Shown here piece by piece: positions 29,634 to 37,415 of a stretch of DNA of 64,000 bases. The first letter of the stretch is position 1. The number at the start of each line of letters is the position of its first letter. This DNA is from an uncultured Pelagibacteraceae bacterium. GTDB taxonomy: Bacteria; Pseudomonadota; Alphaproteobacteria; Pelagibacterales; Pelagibacteraceae. The stretch spans positions 1 to 64,000 of the forward strand of contig CACGAU010000008.1 of assembly GCA_902571135.1 (NCBI GenBank), read 5' to 3'. The notes beneath the pieces were generated by a model, which was not told where the DNA came from, did no database searches, and saw only the letters and a program-made list of their open reading frames with translations. Made by a program: the position numbers and the translations under genes.

Positions 29634-31250
29634 ATGAATCATTACGAGACAAATTTAGATAAAAATAAAGCGAACTACGTTCCACTTACCCCACTAACGT
29701 TTCTTAAAAGAGCAAGGGAAATTTATCCAAATTATGAAGCTATAATTTATGAAGATAGGAAATATACTTGGGAGGAAGTTTACAAAAGAGCTGTAAAATT
29801 TGCTAGCGCACTGTCAAAAATTGGAATTAAAAAAGGAGATACAGTTTCGTTTTTGGCCTTCAATACACCTGAGATTTTCGAAGGACATTACTCAGTACCT
29901 ATGGCAGGTGCAGTATTGAATACAATTAATATAAGACTAGATGCAAATACAATTTCATATATTTTAGATCACAGCGATGCAAAGGTGCTAGTAGTTGATA
30001 GACAATTGCATGGAGAAGTTAAGAAAGCATTAAAAACTTTAAATAAGAAAATTACAATAATTGATATAGATGATAAAAATGCTGATCAATCGAAATTAGA
30101 AAAAATTGGCGATTTAGAATATGAAAGTTTTTTAAATACAGGTGATGAAAATTTCGATTGGCAAATGCCAGAGGATGAATGGCAAGCAATATCATTAAGC
30201 TATACGTCAGGTACTACAGGAAATCCCAAAGGAGTAGTTTATCATCATAGAGGTGCATATTTAATGTCTACAGGAAGTTCGGTAGCTTGGAACATGCCAA
30301 ATAGATTAAATTTTTTAACAGTGGTTCCAATGTTTCATTGTAACGGTTGGTGTTATCCATGGACAGTTCCAATGTTAAATGGAAGGACAATTTGTTTAAG
30401 AAATATTGATATAAAAAAAATTTTTGAATTAATCGATAAATATGAAGTAACTCATTTTGGTGGTGCCCCAATAGTATTAAATATGATTACAGGAGCTCCT
30501 GAAAGTGACAAAAAAAAATTAAAACAAAAAGTTTATGTTTTGACTGCTGGAGCGCCTCCACCGAGTATAATTTTCAAAAAAATGAGAGCATTAGGTTTTG
30601 AAGTTATGCATGTATACGGCTTAACAGAAACTTATGGACATGTTACTCAGTGTGCGTGGAATGATGAATGGAACAATTTCGATGAGGAAAAACAAAATGA
30701 AATTAAGGCTAGGCAAGGTGTAAGATATCCAAATACCGAAGGTGTAGTTGTTTTGGATCCAGAAACAATGAAAGAAGTTCCTAAAGATGGAAAAACAATT
30801 GGTGAAATTATGATTAGAGGGAATGTCGTAATGAAAGGTTACTTTAAAGACAAAGATGCTACCGATAAAGCTATGAAAGATGGATGGTTTCATAGTGGTG
30901 ATTTAGCTGTAATGCATCCTGATGGGTATGTAAAAATACAAGATAGATCAAAAGATATAATTATTTCCGGAGGTGAAAATATTTCCTCAATTGAAATAGA
31001 AAATACACTTTCTAAACATCCATCAGTTTCTATTGCGGCAGTTGTTGCTAAACCTGACGAAAAATGGGGAGAAGTTCCTTGTGCATTTATTGAAATGGTT
31101 AAAGATAAGCCGGTATCAGAAAAAGAATTAATTGATTTTTGTAAAGAAACTTTAGCGGGATTTAAAGTTCCCAAGAAAGTTGTCTTCTGTGAGTTGCCAA
31201 AAACTTCGACAGGAAAAATACAAAAGTTTGAATTAAGAAAACAAGTTTAG
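29634..31250 (+). CDS. dmdB: 3-methylmercaptopropionate-CoA ligase
   Basis: A 538-residue adenylate-forming enzyme that activates methylmercaptopropionate to its CoA thioester. It has the P-loop SYTSGTTGNPKGVVYHH, HVYGLTETYG, the hinge region HSGDLAVMHPDGYVKIQDRSKD (split here: DLAVMHPDGY and DRSKD) and the catalytic lysine K528 in STGKIQKFELRK. It starts 2 bp after dmdC. Related medium-chain acyl-CoA ligases share these motifs; the cluster decides the name. Confidence 0.88.
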   Translation: MNHYETNLDKNKANYVPLTPLTFLKRAREIYPNYEAIIYEDRKYTWEEVYKRAVKFASALSKIGIKKGDTVSFLAFNTPEIFEGHYSVPMAGAVLNTINIRLDANTISYILDHSDAKVLVVDRQLHGEVKKALKTLNKKITIIDIDDKNADQSKLEKIGDLEYESFLNTGDENFDWQMPEDEWQAISLSYTSGTTGNPKGVVYHHRGAYLMSTGSSVAWNMPNRLNFLTVVPMFHCNGWCYPWTVPMLNGRTICLRNIDIKKIFELIDKYEVTHFGGAPIVLNMITGAPESDKKKLKQKVYVLTAGAPPPSIIFKKMRALGFEVMHVYGLTETYGHVTQCAWNDEWNNFDEEKQNEIKARQGVRYPNTEGVVVLDPETMKEVPKDGKTIGEIMIRGNVVMKGYFKDKDATDKAMKDGWFHSGDLAVMHPDGYVKIQDRSKDIIISGGENISSIEIENTLSKHPSVSIAAVVAKPDEKWGEVPCAFIEMVKDKPVSEKELIDFCKETLAGFKVPKKVVFCELPKTSTGKIQKFELRKQV

Positions 31251-31257
31251 GTAATTT

Positions 31258-32034
31258 TTGAATTTTCAATTGGAAAATAAAAATGTCTATGCGTCTGATG
31301 CAGGACAGGGTATTGATCAAAATAAAGAAACAATAGTATTTCTTCATGGAAGTGGTCTTTCGCATATTGTTTGGTCTCTAACTGAACAGTTTTTTTCAAA
31401 TAATAATTTTAACGTATTATCTATAGATTTACCCGGTCATGGTAATTCAGATGGCCCTTGCTTAGATAGTATTGAAAAAATAGCTGATTGGTTAGAACGG
31501 GTTTTTAACGAACTAAATCTAAATAATTTAACTTTAATTGGTCATTCCCAAGGTTGCTTGGAGATACTTGAATATGCTCACAAATATAAAGATAGATTAA
31601 AAAAATTAGTCTTTATTGGAGGCTCAAATAAAATGCCAGTACATCCAGATTTAATTGATCTAGCAAAAAATGGGGACTCCGATGCAGTTAAATTAATGAT
31701 GAAGTGGGGTTATGAGGGTTCAAAAAGATTTATTGGAGGTAACCCAGTAGAAAAAATAATACAATCACCTCGAGATATAAGAGACATACTGGCGGTAGAC
31801 CTTGTTGCATGCAATAATTACAAAAATGGTTCTGATGCTGCTAAATTAATACAACTCCCATCAATGTTTATTTTTGGTTCTTTAGATAAGATGGTAAATC
31901 TAGAAGCAGGAAAAAAATTTTCTAGTCTAATTAACAACTCATCTACACACATAATCGAGGGTTGTGGTCATATGATTATGATTGAAAAAGCATTTGAAAT
32001 GAGAGACAAAGTTTTAGAATTTTTGAAAAAATGA
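31258..32034 (+). CDS. Alpha/beta hydrolase of the DMSP cluster, unassigned
   Basis: 258 residues from a TTG start at 31258. The full triad is visible: S97 in GHSQG, D210 in FGSLDKMV and H238 in [18 protein letters not shown] provides the oxyanion region. It starts 7 bp after dmdB and shares a 4 bp ATGA overlap with dmdA, so it is translated with the pathway. I see no crotonase-type DmdD in the window. A thioesterase or hydrolase role on a pathway intermediate is an inference. Other possibilities are an esterase or a repair enzyme for side products. Confidence 0.8.
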
Positions 32035-33140
32035 AAAACTTTTTAATTGCAAAATCAAGAAGACTTAGAGGTACTCCATATACTTCTCGAATTGAAGAAC
32101 AAGGTGTTACAGCTTATACAATTTATAACCATATGTTGCTTCCAGCTGCCTTTGGTTCAATTGAAGAATCTTACCATCATTTAAAAGAGCATGTTCAGAT
32201 CTGGGATGTAGCAGCTGAAAGACAGGTAGAAATTTCAGGAAAAGATTCTTCAAAACTAGTTCAGCTAATGACTTGTAGAGATTTATCAAAGTCTAAAGAT
32301 GGAAGATGTTATTATTGTCCGATTATAGATGATAATGCTGGATTAATTAATGATCCAGTTGTTTTAAGAATTAATGAAAATAAATGGTGGATTTCTATTG
32401 CAGATACGGACGTAATATTATTTGCAAAAGGATTAGCAATTGGAAATAAATTTGATGTTGAAATCATAGAGCCAAAAGTTGATATCATGGCTGTACAAGG
32501 TCCAAAATCATTTAAATTGATGGAAAAAGTATTTGGAGAACAGATTACAAAATTAAAATTTTTTGGTTTTGATTATTTTGAATTTGGAGGTGCAAAACAC
32601 CTTATCGCACAATCTGGATGGTCTAAACAAGGAGGCTATGAAGTGTATGTTCAAAATACAGAAGCAGGCTTAAAACTGTATGATCATTTATTTGAAATTG
32701 GAAAAGAATTAAATGTTAAACCAGGATGTCCTAATTTGATTGAACGAATAGAAAGTGGACTGTTATCTCATGGTAATGATATGGATAATGGAGATAATCC
32801 TTATGAATGTGGTTTCGATAAATATATTAACATAGATAGTGATGTTATCTTTTTAGGAAAAGAAAAACTAAAGATAATTAAATCTGAGGGAATAAATAAA
32901 AAATTAATGGGAGTTAAATTTGATATAGAGAAAATAAGTTTAACAGGATCTTTAGATCTTACTGATGATCAGAACAACATCGTTGGAGAATTACGGTCAG
33001 CATGCTATTCACCACATTTTAAAAAAGTGATTGGTATTGCTATGATGAAAAAATCACATTGGAATGTAGACCAGAAGGTAAAAGCAAGCATAAATGGTGA
33101 TATTTGCAGTGGTAAAGTTTGCGATTTACCTTTTATTTAG
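32031..33140 (+). CDS. dmdA: DMSP demethylase DmdA
   Basis: A 369-residue protein of the GcvT/aminomethyltransferase fold that moves a methyl group from dimethylsulfoniopropionate to tetrahydrofolate, leaving methylmercaptopropionate. The N-terminus ([18 protein letters not shown]), [26 protein letters not shown] and the C-terminus GKVCDLPFI match, from memory, the characterised SAR11 DmdA, which has the same length. It ends the four-gene cluster; asd follows after 15 bp. Confidence 0.97.
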
Positions 33141-34154: not shown

Positions 34155-34535
34155 ATGGAAGACAGACCTTTATCACCACACATACAGATTTATAAATGGC
34201 ATATTTCTTCATTAGTATCTATTTCACATAGAATTACAGGAATAATTAATTTTTTTGCAATTACTTTAATTTGTATTTGGTTTGCATTAATGCTTCTAGG
34301 AGAAAGTAATTATCAAACTATTAAAATTTTTTTAGAAACTTTTTTAGGTAAATTTATTTTAATTGGAATAACTTGGTCATTTAGTTTTCAAATGTTAAGT
34401 GAAGTAAGACACTTGATTATGGATTTGGGTTATGGATTTGAATTACAAACAACAAAAATTACAGGTTTGTTAGTTATTTTTGGTTCGATTGTTGTAACTA
34501 TCTTAATTTATTTAATTGGCAGAGGATTAATATAA
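34155..34535 (+). CDS. sdhC: Succinate dehydrogenase cytochrome b subunit SdhC, without the usual heme histidine
   Basis: A 126-residue membrane anchor with three helices. The quinone-site signature SISHR (S22, H25, R26) is intact, and RHLIMDLG (R85, H86) is present. The axial heme ligand, a histidine seven residues before that His (His84 in E. coli), is Q79 here, within SFQMLSEVRH. It overlaps sdhD by one base. Family identity is firm from the motifs and from the sdhCDAB order. Confidence 0.92.
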   Translation: MEDRPLSPHIQIYKWHISSLVSISHRITGIINFFAITLICIWFALMLLGESNYQTIKIFLETFLGKFILIGITWSFSFQMLSEVRHLIMDLGYGFELQTTKITGLLVIFGSIVVTILIYLIGRGLI

Positions 34536-34864
34536 TGCTTCCAGTAACAAAAAAATGGTTATTCTTAAAAATTAGTTCTGCAATCTTATTACCTTTAATG
34601 CTTTGGTTTATTATAAATTTAGTGAATATCTATGATAAAAGTTATTTTGAAATAGTGAATTTTTTAACAACACAACCATCTAAATTCCTAATTGGATTAT
34701 TTTTAGTTATTGCTTATTTTTTTTCAGCTTTAACTATAAGTGAGGTTTTTGAAGACTATATTAACGATAAAAAAACCAAAAATGCCGCAAACAAAGTCCT
34801 AAATTTTTTTGCTATAACAATCCCAGTAATTACAATAATTGTAATTTTTAACTTAAATACATGA
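34535..34864 (+). CDS. sdhD: Succinate dehydrogenase membrane anchor SdhD, without any histidine
   Basis: A 109-residue anchor with three hydrophobic helices. The family motif ends in DY (D74-Y75, the quinone-site tyrosine of E. coli Y83). Eleven residues before that Asp, where E. coli has the heme ligand His71, this protein has F63. There is no histidine in the whole protein. It overlaps sdhA by 4 bp (ATGA). The assignment rests on position, size, hydrophobicity and the EDY motif. Confidence 0.88.
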
Positions 34865-36636
34865 AAGCATATAATATTATAGACCATGAGTACGATGTTG
34901 TTGTACTTGGTGCAGGTGGATCAGGTTTAAGAGCGGCAGTAGGGCTCAGCGAAGCTGGCTTAAAAACAGCTTGTATCTCAAAAGTATTTCCTACCAGAAG
35001 TCATACATCAGCTGCACAAGGCGGAATATCAGCAGCACTAGGAAACATGGGAGAAGATGATTGGAGATGGCACATGTATGACACTGTAAAAGGTGCAGAT
35101 TGGTTAGGTGATCAAGATAGTATTGAATATCTTTGTAAAGAAGCACCTAAAGCAGTTTTAGAATTAGAGAAATATGGAGTTCCATTTAGCAGAACTGAAG
35201 AAGGAAAAATTTATCAAAGACCATTTGGTGGAATGACAAAAAATTATGGAAATGGAATAGTTCAAAGAACTTGTGCGGCAGCTGATAGAACAGGACATGC
35301 TATTTTACACACATTATATGGACAAGCGTTAAAGCATAATACAGAATTTTTTATAGAATATTTTGCATTAGATTTGTTGATGAAGAATGGCGAATGCAAA
35401 GGTCTAATTGCTTGGAATTTGAATGATGGCACAATTCACAGATTTAGAGCGCACACAGTAATTATTGCTACAGGTGGTTATGGAAAAGTTTATTATTCAG
35501 CAACATCAGCACATACTTGCACTGGTGATGGTAATGCAATGGTTTTAAGAGCTGGACTGCCGCTTCAGGATATGGAGTTTGTTCAATTTCACCCAACAGG
35601 AATTTATGGCCACGGCACATTAATAACAGAAGGTGCGCGAGGAGAAGGGGGTTATCTTACAAATTCTAAAGGTGAAAGATTTATGGAAAGATATGCTCCA
35701 AATGCAAAAGATTTAGCATCAAGAGATGTTGTTAGCAGATCTATGTCTATTGAGATTAATGAGGGAAGAGGTGTTGGAAAAGATCAAGACCATGTTCATT
35801 TGAACCTAAGTCACTTAGATAAAGATATTATTGAAAGCAGGCTTCCTGGAATTACTGATGCAGCGAGATTATTTGCAAATGTAGATGTAACTAAAGAACC
35901 AATTCCTGTTGTGCCAACAGTTCATTATAATATGGGTGGTATTCCAACAAACTATAAAGCAGAAGTATTGACTGTAAATGGCTCAGAAAAAACTGTTCCA
36001 GGTTTAATGGCTATAGGAGAAGCGGCATGTGTCTCTGTTCACGGAGCAAATAGACTTGGTTCTAATTCTTTAATTGATTTAGTAGTATTTGGAAGAGCAG
36101 CAGCAAAAAGAGCAGCTGAATTAGTTAAGCCAGGAACACCTCATGAAGAAATTCCAGAGTCAGAAACACAAAAATGTTTAGATAGATTTGATAAACTTAG
36201 AAATGCACAAGGAAATAATAGTACTGCAGAACTTAGACTTTCAATGCAAAAAACCATGCAGTCGAAATGTGCAGTTTTTAGAACTGAAAAAAATCTTAAA
36301 GAAGGTGTTGATGAGATTAAAAAAACCTATGATGGTATGGACTCAATTTCAGTCAAAGATAGGTCTTTAGTATTTAATACTGATTTAGTTGAAACATTAG
36401 AATTTGATAATTTAATAAGACAAGCAGTAACTACTGTAGAATCTGCATATCATAGAAAAGAGAGCAGAGGTGCTCACGCGAGAGACGACTATCCAAAAAG
36501 AGATGATGAAAAGTTTATGCAACACACTCTTGCTTGGTGTGATGGAAAAAATACAAAGATTAGTTACAGAGCAGTACACAAATCAACTTTAACAAACGAA
36601 GTTCAATATTTTCCACCACAAGAGCGAGTATATTAA
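34861..36636 (+). CDS. sdhA: Succinate dehydrogenase flavoprotein subunit
   Basis: A 591-residue subunit with covalent FAD that oxidises succinate to fumarate. It has [10 protein letters not shown] for FAD, the flavin-linking histidine in [17 protein letters not shown] and GARGEGGYL at the active site, and [11 protein letters not shown] near the C-terminal domain. The sequence is complete and ordinary, unlike the membrane anchors. It overlaps sdhB by one base. Confidence 0.98.
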
Positions 36637-37415
36637 TGGTTCAGCTAAGCTTACCTAAAAATTCAGAGGTTAAAAAAGGCAAATATTTTAAAGACAAAAC
36701 TGGATCTAAAAATTTAAGAAAAGTAAATATTTATAGATGGGATCCATCGACAGAGGAAAATCCTAGGATTGATACATACGAAGTTGATATGAATAATTGT
36801 CCATCTAAGGTGCTAGATATTTTAAATAAAATTAAAAACGAAATTGATCCTACATTGGCCTATAGACGGTCTTGTGCTCACGGTGTTTGTGGTTCTTGTG
36901 CTATGAATATGGGAGGAAAAAATGGACTAGCCTGCACGACTCCTCATGCAGAGATAAACGGTGACATCGATATTTATCCTCTACCTCATTTAAAAGTTAA
37001 AAGAGATTTGATTGGTGATTTAGATGGCTTATACAAACAATATCAATCTATTGAACCTTGGTTAAAAAATAACTCAACAAAACAGACAACAGAAATTTAT
37101 CAGTCTAAAGAAGACAGAGCAAAACTTGATGGTGCTTACGAATGCATTATGTGTGCTTGCTGTTCTACATCTTGCCCAAGTTATTGGTGGAATGGAGATA
37201 AATATTTAGGTCCAGCAGTTCTGCTACAAGCTTATAGATGGATTATTGATAGTAGAGATGAAGAGAGAAAAGCTAGATTAAAAAAAGTTTCAGATGAATT
37301 AAAATTATATAGATGCCATACAATATTAAATTGTACAAATGCATGTCCTAAGGGCTTGAATCCAGCAAAAGCTATAGCTGAAATAAAAAAAATGTTAGCA
37401 ACAGCTAATGTTTAA
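36636..37415 (+). CDS. sdhB: Succinate dehydrogenase iron-sulfur subunit
   Basis: A 259-residue subunit with all three Fe-S cluster motifs: [12 protein letters not shown] plus C later for [2Fe-2S], [12 protein letters not shown] for [4Fe-4S], and [17 protein letters not shown] for [3Fe-4S]. It relays electrons from FAD to quinone at the SdhC/D interface. It ends the sdhCDAB operon, with mmsA 39 bp downstream. Confidence 0.98.

Follow-up and report, generated by a model that had tools for sequence, protein, structure and literature searches.

Whether the complex II encoded at this locus binds heme b is the question raised by its two membrane anchor subunits. The positions of SdhC H84 and SdhD H71 in E. 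coli, which we take from established knowledge to be those of the axial heme b ligands, had been assigned in a preliminary description of this DNA to Q79 of SdhC and F63 of SdhD, the latter subunit being devoid of histidine; with the quinone-site residues retained, a heme-less but quinone-reactive enzyme had been predicted, with iron scarcity as a plausible cause. What heme b does in this complex is a long-standing question. Here, the locus was analyzed within the whole stretch of DNA (the window, 64,000 nucleotides, genus Pelagibacter) and against its relatives, and we conclude that it very probably encodes a heme-less, quinone-reactive type C succinate:ubiquinone oxidoreductase, as judged from protein sequences.

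The genes are arranged in the order sdhCDAB on the plus strand, with sdhC and sdhD directly 5′ of sdhA and sdhB (Table 1), and all four pass curated family cut-offs. A PF01127 search of the window's own assembly (1.16 Mb, 25 contigs, 87% complete) revealed no anchor genes beyond sdhC and sdhD. Both anchors fall into the SdhC/SdhD families of type C (TIGR02970 and TIGR02968, above cut-off), and the SdhC structure model matches E. coli SdhC best; type D is not indicated, with the FrdD model reaching 11.8 bits on SdhC against a cut-off of 60, and PF02313 reaching 18 against 25. The type C ubiquinone site is present: Ser and Arg (S22 and R26) in SdhC, Asp and Tyr (D74 and Y75) in SdhD, and Trp/His/Ile in SdhB, whose quinone-site motifs Pro-Ser-Tyr-Trp-Trp and Arg-Cys-His-Thr-Ile are evident in the alignment with avian SdhB. 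The upstream neighborhood contains dmdA (dimethylsulfoniopropionate demethylase; NF009133, 578 bits, above cut-off; 32031-33140), two genes upstream of sdhC, and a gene for an acyl-CoA synthetase (above the PRK08162 cut-off; 29634-31250), two genes before dmdA.

Table 1 Genes of the sdhCDAB locus and codons at the former heme pocket (positions in the window)
Feature	Position	Strand	Description	Evidence
sdhC	34155..34535	+	type C membrane anchor subunit, 126 aa	intact ORF; TIGR02970 129.2 bits (cut-off 52.3), PF01127 97 bits
sdhD	34535..34864	+	membrane anchor subunit, 109 aa, no His	intact ORF; TIGR02968 46.4 bits (cut-off 41.8); profile alignment to 1nek_D
sdhA	34861..36636	+	flavoprotein subunit	TIGR01816 962 bits
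sdhB	36636..37415	+	iron-sulfur subunit	NF004616 355.8 bits; alignment with avian SdhB
SdhC Q79 codon CAA	34389..34391	+	heme ligand His position (E. coli SdhC H84)	
SdhC E83 codon GAA	34401..34403	+	replaces Gly of HxxxG (E. coli G88)	
SdhD K12 codon AAA	34568..34570	+	equivalent to E. coli R20, a heme propionate partner, and to yeast Sdh4 Lys73	
SdhD F63 codon TTT	34721..34723	+	heme ligand His position (E. coli SdhD H71)	
SdhD T67 codon ACT	34733..34735	+	replaces Gly of HxxxG (E. coli G75)	

The one feature of type C that is absent is the axial histidine in each anchor subunit. E. coli residue numbers were assigned from the spacing to conserved motifs and compared with the profile alignment of SdhD. 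SdhC Q79, seven residues before the His of RH, aligns to the conserved histidine of mitochondrial SdhC in PDB-chain alignments, and SdhD F63 shares its column with His H71 of the E. coli subunit (1nek_D, residues 11-112 aligned to profile 6-107), found by a profile search after a single-sequence search of SdhD against the PDB gave no match. The assignment of both residues to the ligand positions, the lack of any histidine in the translated SdhD and the retention of the quinone-site residues, to which D74 can be added, were thus borne out. An AlphaFold2 model of SdhC alone (pLDDT 82) comprises helices 8-46, 50-61, 63-90 and 97-125, with Q79 and the residue four positions on, E83, on the same helix. 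Structurally it is closest to entries for E. coli SdhC (Z 12.2 to 11.8), and yeast Sdh3 scores 9.7; as unrelated receptors reach Z values of up to 9.3, the fold match by itself is modest.

To define the states of the two ligand positions within SAR11, 147 genomes of the order were searched, 128 of which yielded an sdhC match (two rows were left out: L002, the window's sdhD match, and L120, on the wrong side, with L130 standing for G057; the truncated SdhD of L008 was scored as a gap). In Pelagibacter (g1), SdhC Q79 is present in 71/71 genomes, and SdhD position 63 is occupied by Phe (62), Tyr (6) or His (3); both ligands are absent in 68/71, with the other three lacking the SdhC ligand only. 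These three (L078, L085 and L125) have SdhD His63, either kept or regained, in a context devoid of the HxxxG glycines. The other genera of the family differ: with states written as SdhC79/SdhD63, g5 contains seven H/F and two Q/F genomes and g6 one H/F genome, whereas g2, g3 and g4 are H/H throughout (7/7). Searching a further 61 genomes of the sister genus g5 gave 46 matches (15 without), of which five had already been counted; the 41 added have SdhC His in 38, Gln in two and Phe in one case, and SdhD Phe in 41/41. A family-level search around G093 returned no additional genomes. Both ligands are kept in HIMB114 (L320), in the AG-464 single cells L312 and L314, and in LD12 (L311). Among the best 80 of 583 relatives at named loci, 44 are Q/F, including Candidatus Pelagibacter ubique HTCC9565 (L380), 21 are H/F and 15 are H/H, the last being over-represented because the ranking was by closeness to an H/H query. 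With Q79 in 71/71 genus genomes and Q/F at 44/80 named loci, Q79 and F63 are due neither to chance nor to an error in a single assembly. Alignment with characterized subunits and other SAR11 genomes, proposed earlier as a check, therefore confirmed the loss, and loss of both heme ligands is lineage-wide in the genus.

The second SAR11 family shows another pattern, with Y/H in g7 (31 genomes) and g9 (3), N/H in g10 (1), and H/H in four g8 genomes besides one with a truncated SdhD. SdhD position 11, beside the propionate Arg, is His instead of the usual Gln in 34/35 genomes of g7, g9 and g10 without the SdhC ligand; pairing of position 11 with SdhD His63 was also sought within Pelagibacter, and not found. 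Regarding the 19 genomes of the order without an sdhC match, 16 also lack an sdhA match at E 1e-150, so in these it is the locus that is absent or disrupted, and not just its anchor genes. These 16 (G105, G038, G008 and 13 others) include one that is 98% complete (G038), reflecting either an assembly gap or real complex II loss.

Outside the order, the ligand pair is nearly universal among the alphaproteobacteria sampled. A survey of the class covered 133 genomes (25 without a match; 106 of the 108 matched after removal of the order members G000 and G001; best sdhC match per genome), and 103/106 are H/H, with two Y/H (L235 and L238) and one Y/V (L239). The loss in Pelagibacter is therefore real and specific. 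In several small-genome alphaproteobacteria (L235, L238, L239 and L385-L387), the SdhC His is replaced by Tyr and the SdhD HxxxG Gly by Glu, the residue that yeast has there; in L239 the SdhD His is gone too, and the order of L238 displays SdhC Tyr and SdhD HxxxE in 3/3 genomes. These are possibly independent heme losses.

The order of events was mapped on a quick tree (61 rows, SH-aLRT only) built from SdhA, SdhC and SdhD after removal of the trait columns, alongside a second quick tree of 72 rows; both cover subsets. On the 61-row tree, the H/H rows of the window's family fall into g2 (with HIMB114), g3, g4 and a clade containing the AG-464 single cells, which is sister to Pelagibacter plus g5/g6. 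Glu83 of SdhC is placed on the stem leading to Pelagibacter and g5/g6 (support 99), and parsimony puts loss of the SdhD His on the same stem, with four changes in all. This loss is not firmly dated, because an alternative in which the Pelagibacter ancestor still had the SdhD His costs about one change more (hand count), given that one Pelagibacter subgroup holds both Tyr and His; the exact sequence of changes within the genus is best regarded as provisional. SdhC His79 was lost four times by parsimony: to Gln in Pelagibacter, in L084/L095 and in L319, and to Phe in L296. Since L084/L095, L319 and L296 sit among rows that all have SdhD Phe, the SdhC His in g5/g6 was lost after the SdhD His. A separate loss of the SdhC His (to Tyr or Asn) took place in the second SAR11 family, whose g8 keeps both ligands. 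These trees thus give a minimum of two origins for ligand loss in SAR11.

The ligand positions did not change in isolation. The motif HxxxG occurs on both heme helices, and its glycine is almost invariant in the 103 H/H sequences of the class (SdhC, 101 Gly and 2 Asp; SdhD, 101 Gly, 1 Ser and 1 Asp). In 222 unique SAR11 SdhC/SdhD pairs, drawn from 249 loci, SdhC position 83 is Gly in 21/21 pairs with both ligands and Glu in 105/105 pairs with neither; it is Glu in 60 of the 61 pairs with the SdhC His only (the other being L008), and Cys (29), Glu (3), Ser (2) or Asp (1) in the 35 with the SdhD His only. Each of these 105 no-ligand pairs likewise has Ser, Thr or Asn instead of the SdhD glycine. 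SdhC position 83 and SdhD position 12 changed jointly, with the combinations Glu/Lys (163), Gly/Arg (17), Glu/Arg (4) and Glu/gap (1) in unique Pelagibacteraceae-like pairs, and K12 in 101/105 no-ligand pairs. Lys12 is compatible with both ligands (5/12 rows from H/H SAR11 genera) and hence no marker alone. Nor does a glycine change by itself prove heme loss, as L312 and L314 (SdhD Gly to Ser) and a few H/H sequences of the class show it with both ligands in place. By contrast, S22, R26, D74 and Y75 are all kept in 221/222 pairs, the exception being the truncated SdhD of L008, and SdhC D90 is kept in 222/222.

These pocket changes bear on the possibility that heme b is still bound, either by recruitment of other ligands (SdhC H25, H86 or possibly H16) or as a loose five-coordinate heme. 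H25 and H86 are still near the old heme site and are each kept in 70/71 genus genomes, as is H16. E. coli ligand mutants have been reported to retain heme, according to a title cited in PMC13066397, and the crystal entries 2wu2 and 2wu5 are His84Met and His71Met mutants. Yet H25 and H86 are not new spare ligands: they are shared with heme-type enzymes (98/103 and 100/103 class sequences, respectively), and their E. coli equivalents H30 and H91 already touch a pyrrole ring and a propionate, respectively, as described in PMC3290573, such that an axial role would require movement. H16 is erratic, changing 11 times on the 61-row tree and occurring with both ligands in L312 and L314. The concern raised in the preliminary description, that one of these three histidines might serve as ligand, is answered in part by these observations; together with the replacement of both HxxxG glycines in every no-ligand pair, they make retention of heme b improbable. 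A tight pairing of H16 with Q79, apparent in the first 128 genomes (72/73 with Q79, 0/55 others), was rejected when more genomes broke it: H16 accompanies His79 in 4/41 further sister-genus genomes as well as in L312 and L314, while L319 and L350 have Q79 but lack H16.

If heme is absent, the ligands of a dispensable cofactor might simply have drifted away in streamlined genomes, with no replacement contacts. The repeated loss of SdhC His79 within the group that lacks the SdhD His would be in keeping with such neutral decay, as would ligand losses in a few small-genome alphaproteobacteria outside SAR11. Against this, the replacements are specific and nearly fixed (E83 and K12, as above). Q79, S82 and E83 are invariant in 71/71 genus members at a mean SdhC identity of 71% and a median silent difference of about 0.6, and are thus themselves under selection. 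Both genes are under purifying selection, with a median dN/dS of 0.18 for sdhC (141 unsaturated pairs) and 0.25 for sdhD (211), from 400 sampled pairs each. We consider neutral decay rather unlikely.

A further question is why heme would have been abandoned. Adaptation to iron scarcity in the open ocean agrees with the contrast between LD12, which keeps both ligands and is presumably freshwater, and Pelagibacter, which we take to be an open-ocean group. However, HIMB114, L312 and L314, all presumably marine, keep both ligands too, and the saving would be small: complex II contains ten iron atoms, in three Fe-S clusters and the heme, and the heme accounts for one. Ferrochelatase and a heme-copper oxidase are retained in the window's genome, which shows that the cell still produces heme and employs it in other enzymes; moreover, one or both ligands were also lost in a few small-genome alphaproteobacteria outside SAR11, and yeast complex II is heme-less as well (PMC13066397). 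Iron saving as the cause, as initially suggested, is therefore not supported and appears quite unlikely, even if it may have contributed. The other half of that prediction, an enzyme that lacks heme but reacts with quinone, draws good support from sequence and phylogeny and from the example of yeast.

The enzyme would then function as follows. Electrons would pass from succinate via FAD and three Fe-S clusters to ubiquinone at the SdhB/C/D interface, a route for which heme would not be needed; normal activity may be expected. The space and the cross-link formerly provided by heme would be taken over by protein. The Glu that replaced SdhC Gly83 would stand in for a heme propionate and pair with SdhD Lys12, which replaced the propionate-binding Arg12 in a joint change. 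The pocket would be filled by SdhD Phe or Tyr in place of His63 and Ser or Thr in place of Gly67, and SdhC His79, its role lost, would have been free to become Gln (in all sampled Pelagibacter genomes and two other lineages) or Phe (in one genome). This scheme is compatible with what is described for E. coli in PMC3290573, where heme lies outside the direct FAD-to-quinone route and growth on succinate is supported by a heme-free variant, although heme stabilizes the isolated enzyme and is needed for this; there, SdhD R20, together with SdhC H91 and SdhB H207, binds the distal heme propionate. Confidence in the heme-less reading is tempered by the E. coli ligand mutants that can retain heme, the three genus members with SdhD His63 and the sister-genus genomes that mostly have SdhC His79 (38/41), both odd for a pocket that has long been dead, and the glycine changes that are possible with both ligands.

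Pelagibacter, an abundant marine microbe, thus probably runs its succinate dehydrogenase without heme. SAR11 constitutes a natural experiment, with close relatives that have both ligands, one or none at a constant quinone site, and whose enzymes lend themselves to direct comparison of stability, turnover and radical leak. Were heme absence confirmed, a dominant ocean heterotroph would lack a textbook cofactor of this enzyme, for which the model name 'cytochrome b556 subunit' would be wrong. No spectroscopy or structure of a SAR11 complex II was found in the literature, and titles and abstract openings listed from an open-licence library, in which subscription journals are mostly absent, revealed no report of heme loss from a type C complex II of SAR11 or of another bacterium. 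Already known, from PMC13066397, are a heme-less type C enzyme in yeast and heme-less complex II in some protists, to which the SAR11 case is an addition.

Compared with E. coli SdhCDAB (1NEK), the Pelagibacter enzyme has the same gene order, SdhC fold, and quinone-site and propionate-network residues (S, R, H, D and Y), but both ligands and both HxxxG glycines are replaced, and R20 is Lys. E. coli fumarate reductase, a type D enzyme, has two small hydrophobic subunits and no heme (PMC10238741). The Pelagibacter enzyme resembles it in its two small hydrophobic anchors and, presumably, in the absence of heme; it differs in that the anchors belong to the SdhC/SdhD rather than the FrdC/FrdD families. 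The complex II of Tetrahymena and Perkinsus is reported to be heme-less in PMC13066397, where it is called divergent.

The closest parallel is S. cerevisiae, whose complex II, according to the same source, is heme-less, with SdhC His156 bonded to SdhD Tyr108, and with Arg97-Glu112, Asp167-Lys73 and Tyr157-Thr84 replacing the propionate contacts. By residue count, Glu112 corresponds to the SdhD HxxxG Gly, and Asp167, at His156+11, to D90 of the window; Lys73 corresponds to E. coli R20 and to K12 through a weak match of equal lengths (Sdh4 62-88 on SdhD profile 4-30, E 1.4). On these correspondences, Pelagibacter has both the Lys and the Asp that yeast uses. The two enzymes have homologous type C anchors, and in both the SdhD His is replaced (by F63 in the window), Lys occupies the R20 position, Glu occupies an HxxxG Gly, and the quinone site is kept. 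However, the yeast Glu is in SdhD, bonded to SdhC Arg97, whereas that of Pelagibacter is in SdhC (E83), with T67 at the SdhD site; and yeast keeps SdhC His156 bonded to SdhD Tyr108, whereas Pelagibacter has SdhC Gln and mostly SdhD Phe. In the second SAR11 family, SdhC Tyr79 and SdhD His63 resemble the His/Tyr pair of yeast in exchanged subunits, although an enzyme with one His left could still hold heme. Taken together, there is about an even chance that type C complex II has repeatedly given up its heme b along a predictable route, in which an acidic residue at an HxxxG Gly replaces a propionate (in SdhC in the first SAR11 family, in SdhD in yeast and small-genome alphaproteobacteria), and the ligand pair becomes a direct contact (SdhC His/SdhD Tyr in yeast, SdhC Tyr/SdhD His in the second SAR11 family). 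If so, most ocean SAR11 would respire succinate without complex II heme, and the cofactor would be dispensable in nature. For Pelagibacter itself, the best reading by analogy is a mirror image of the yeast solution, its Glu occupying the symmetry-related glycine position on the SdhC side rather than that on the SdhD side.
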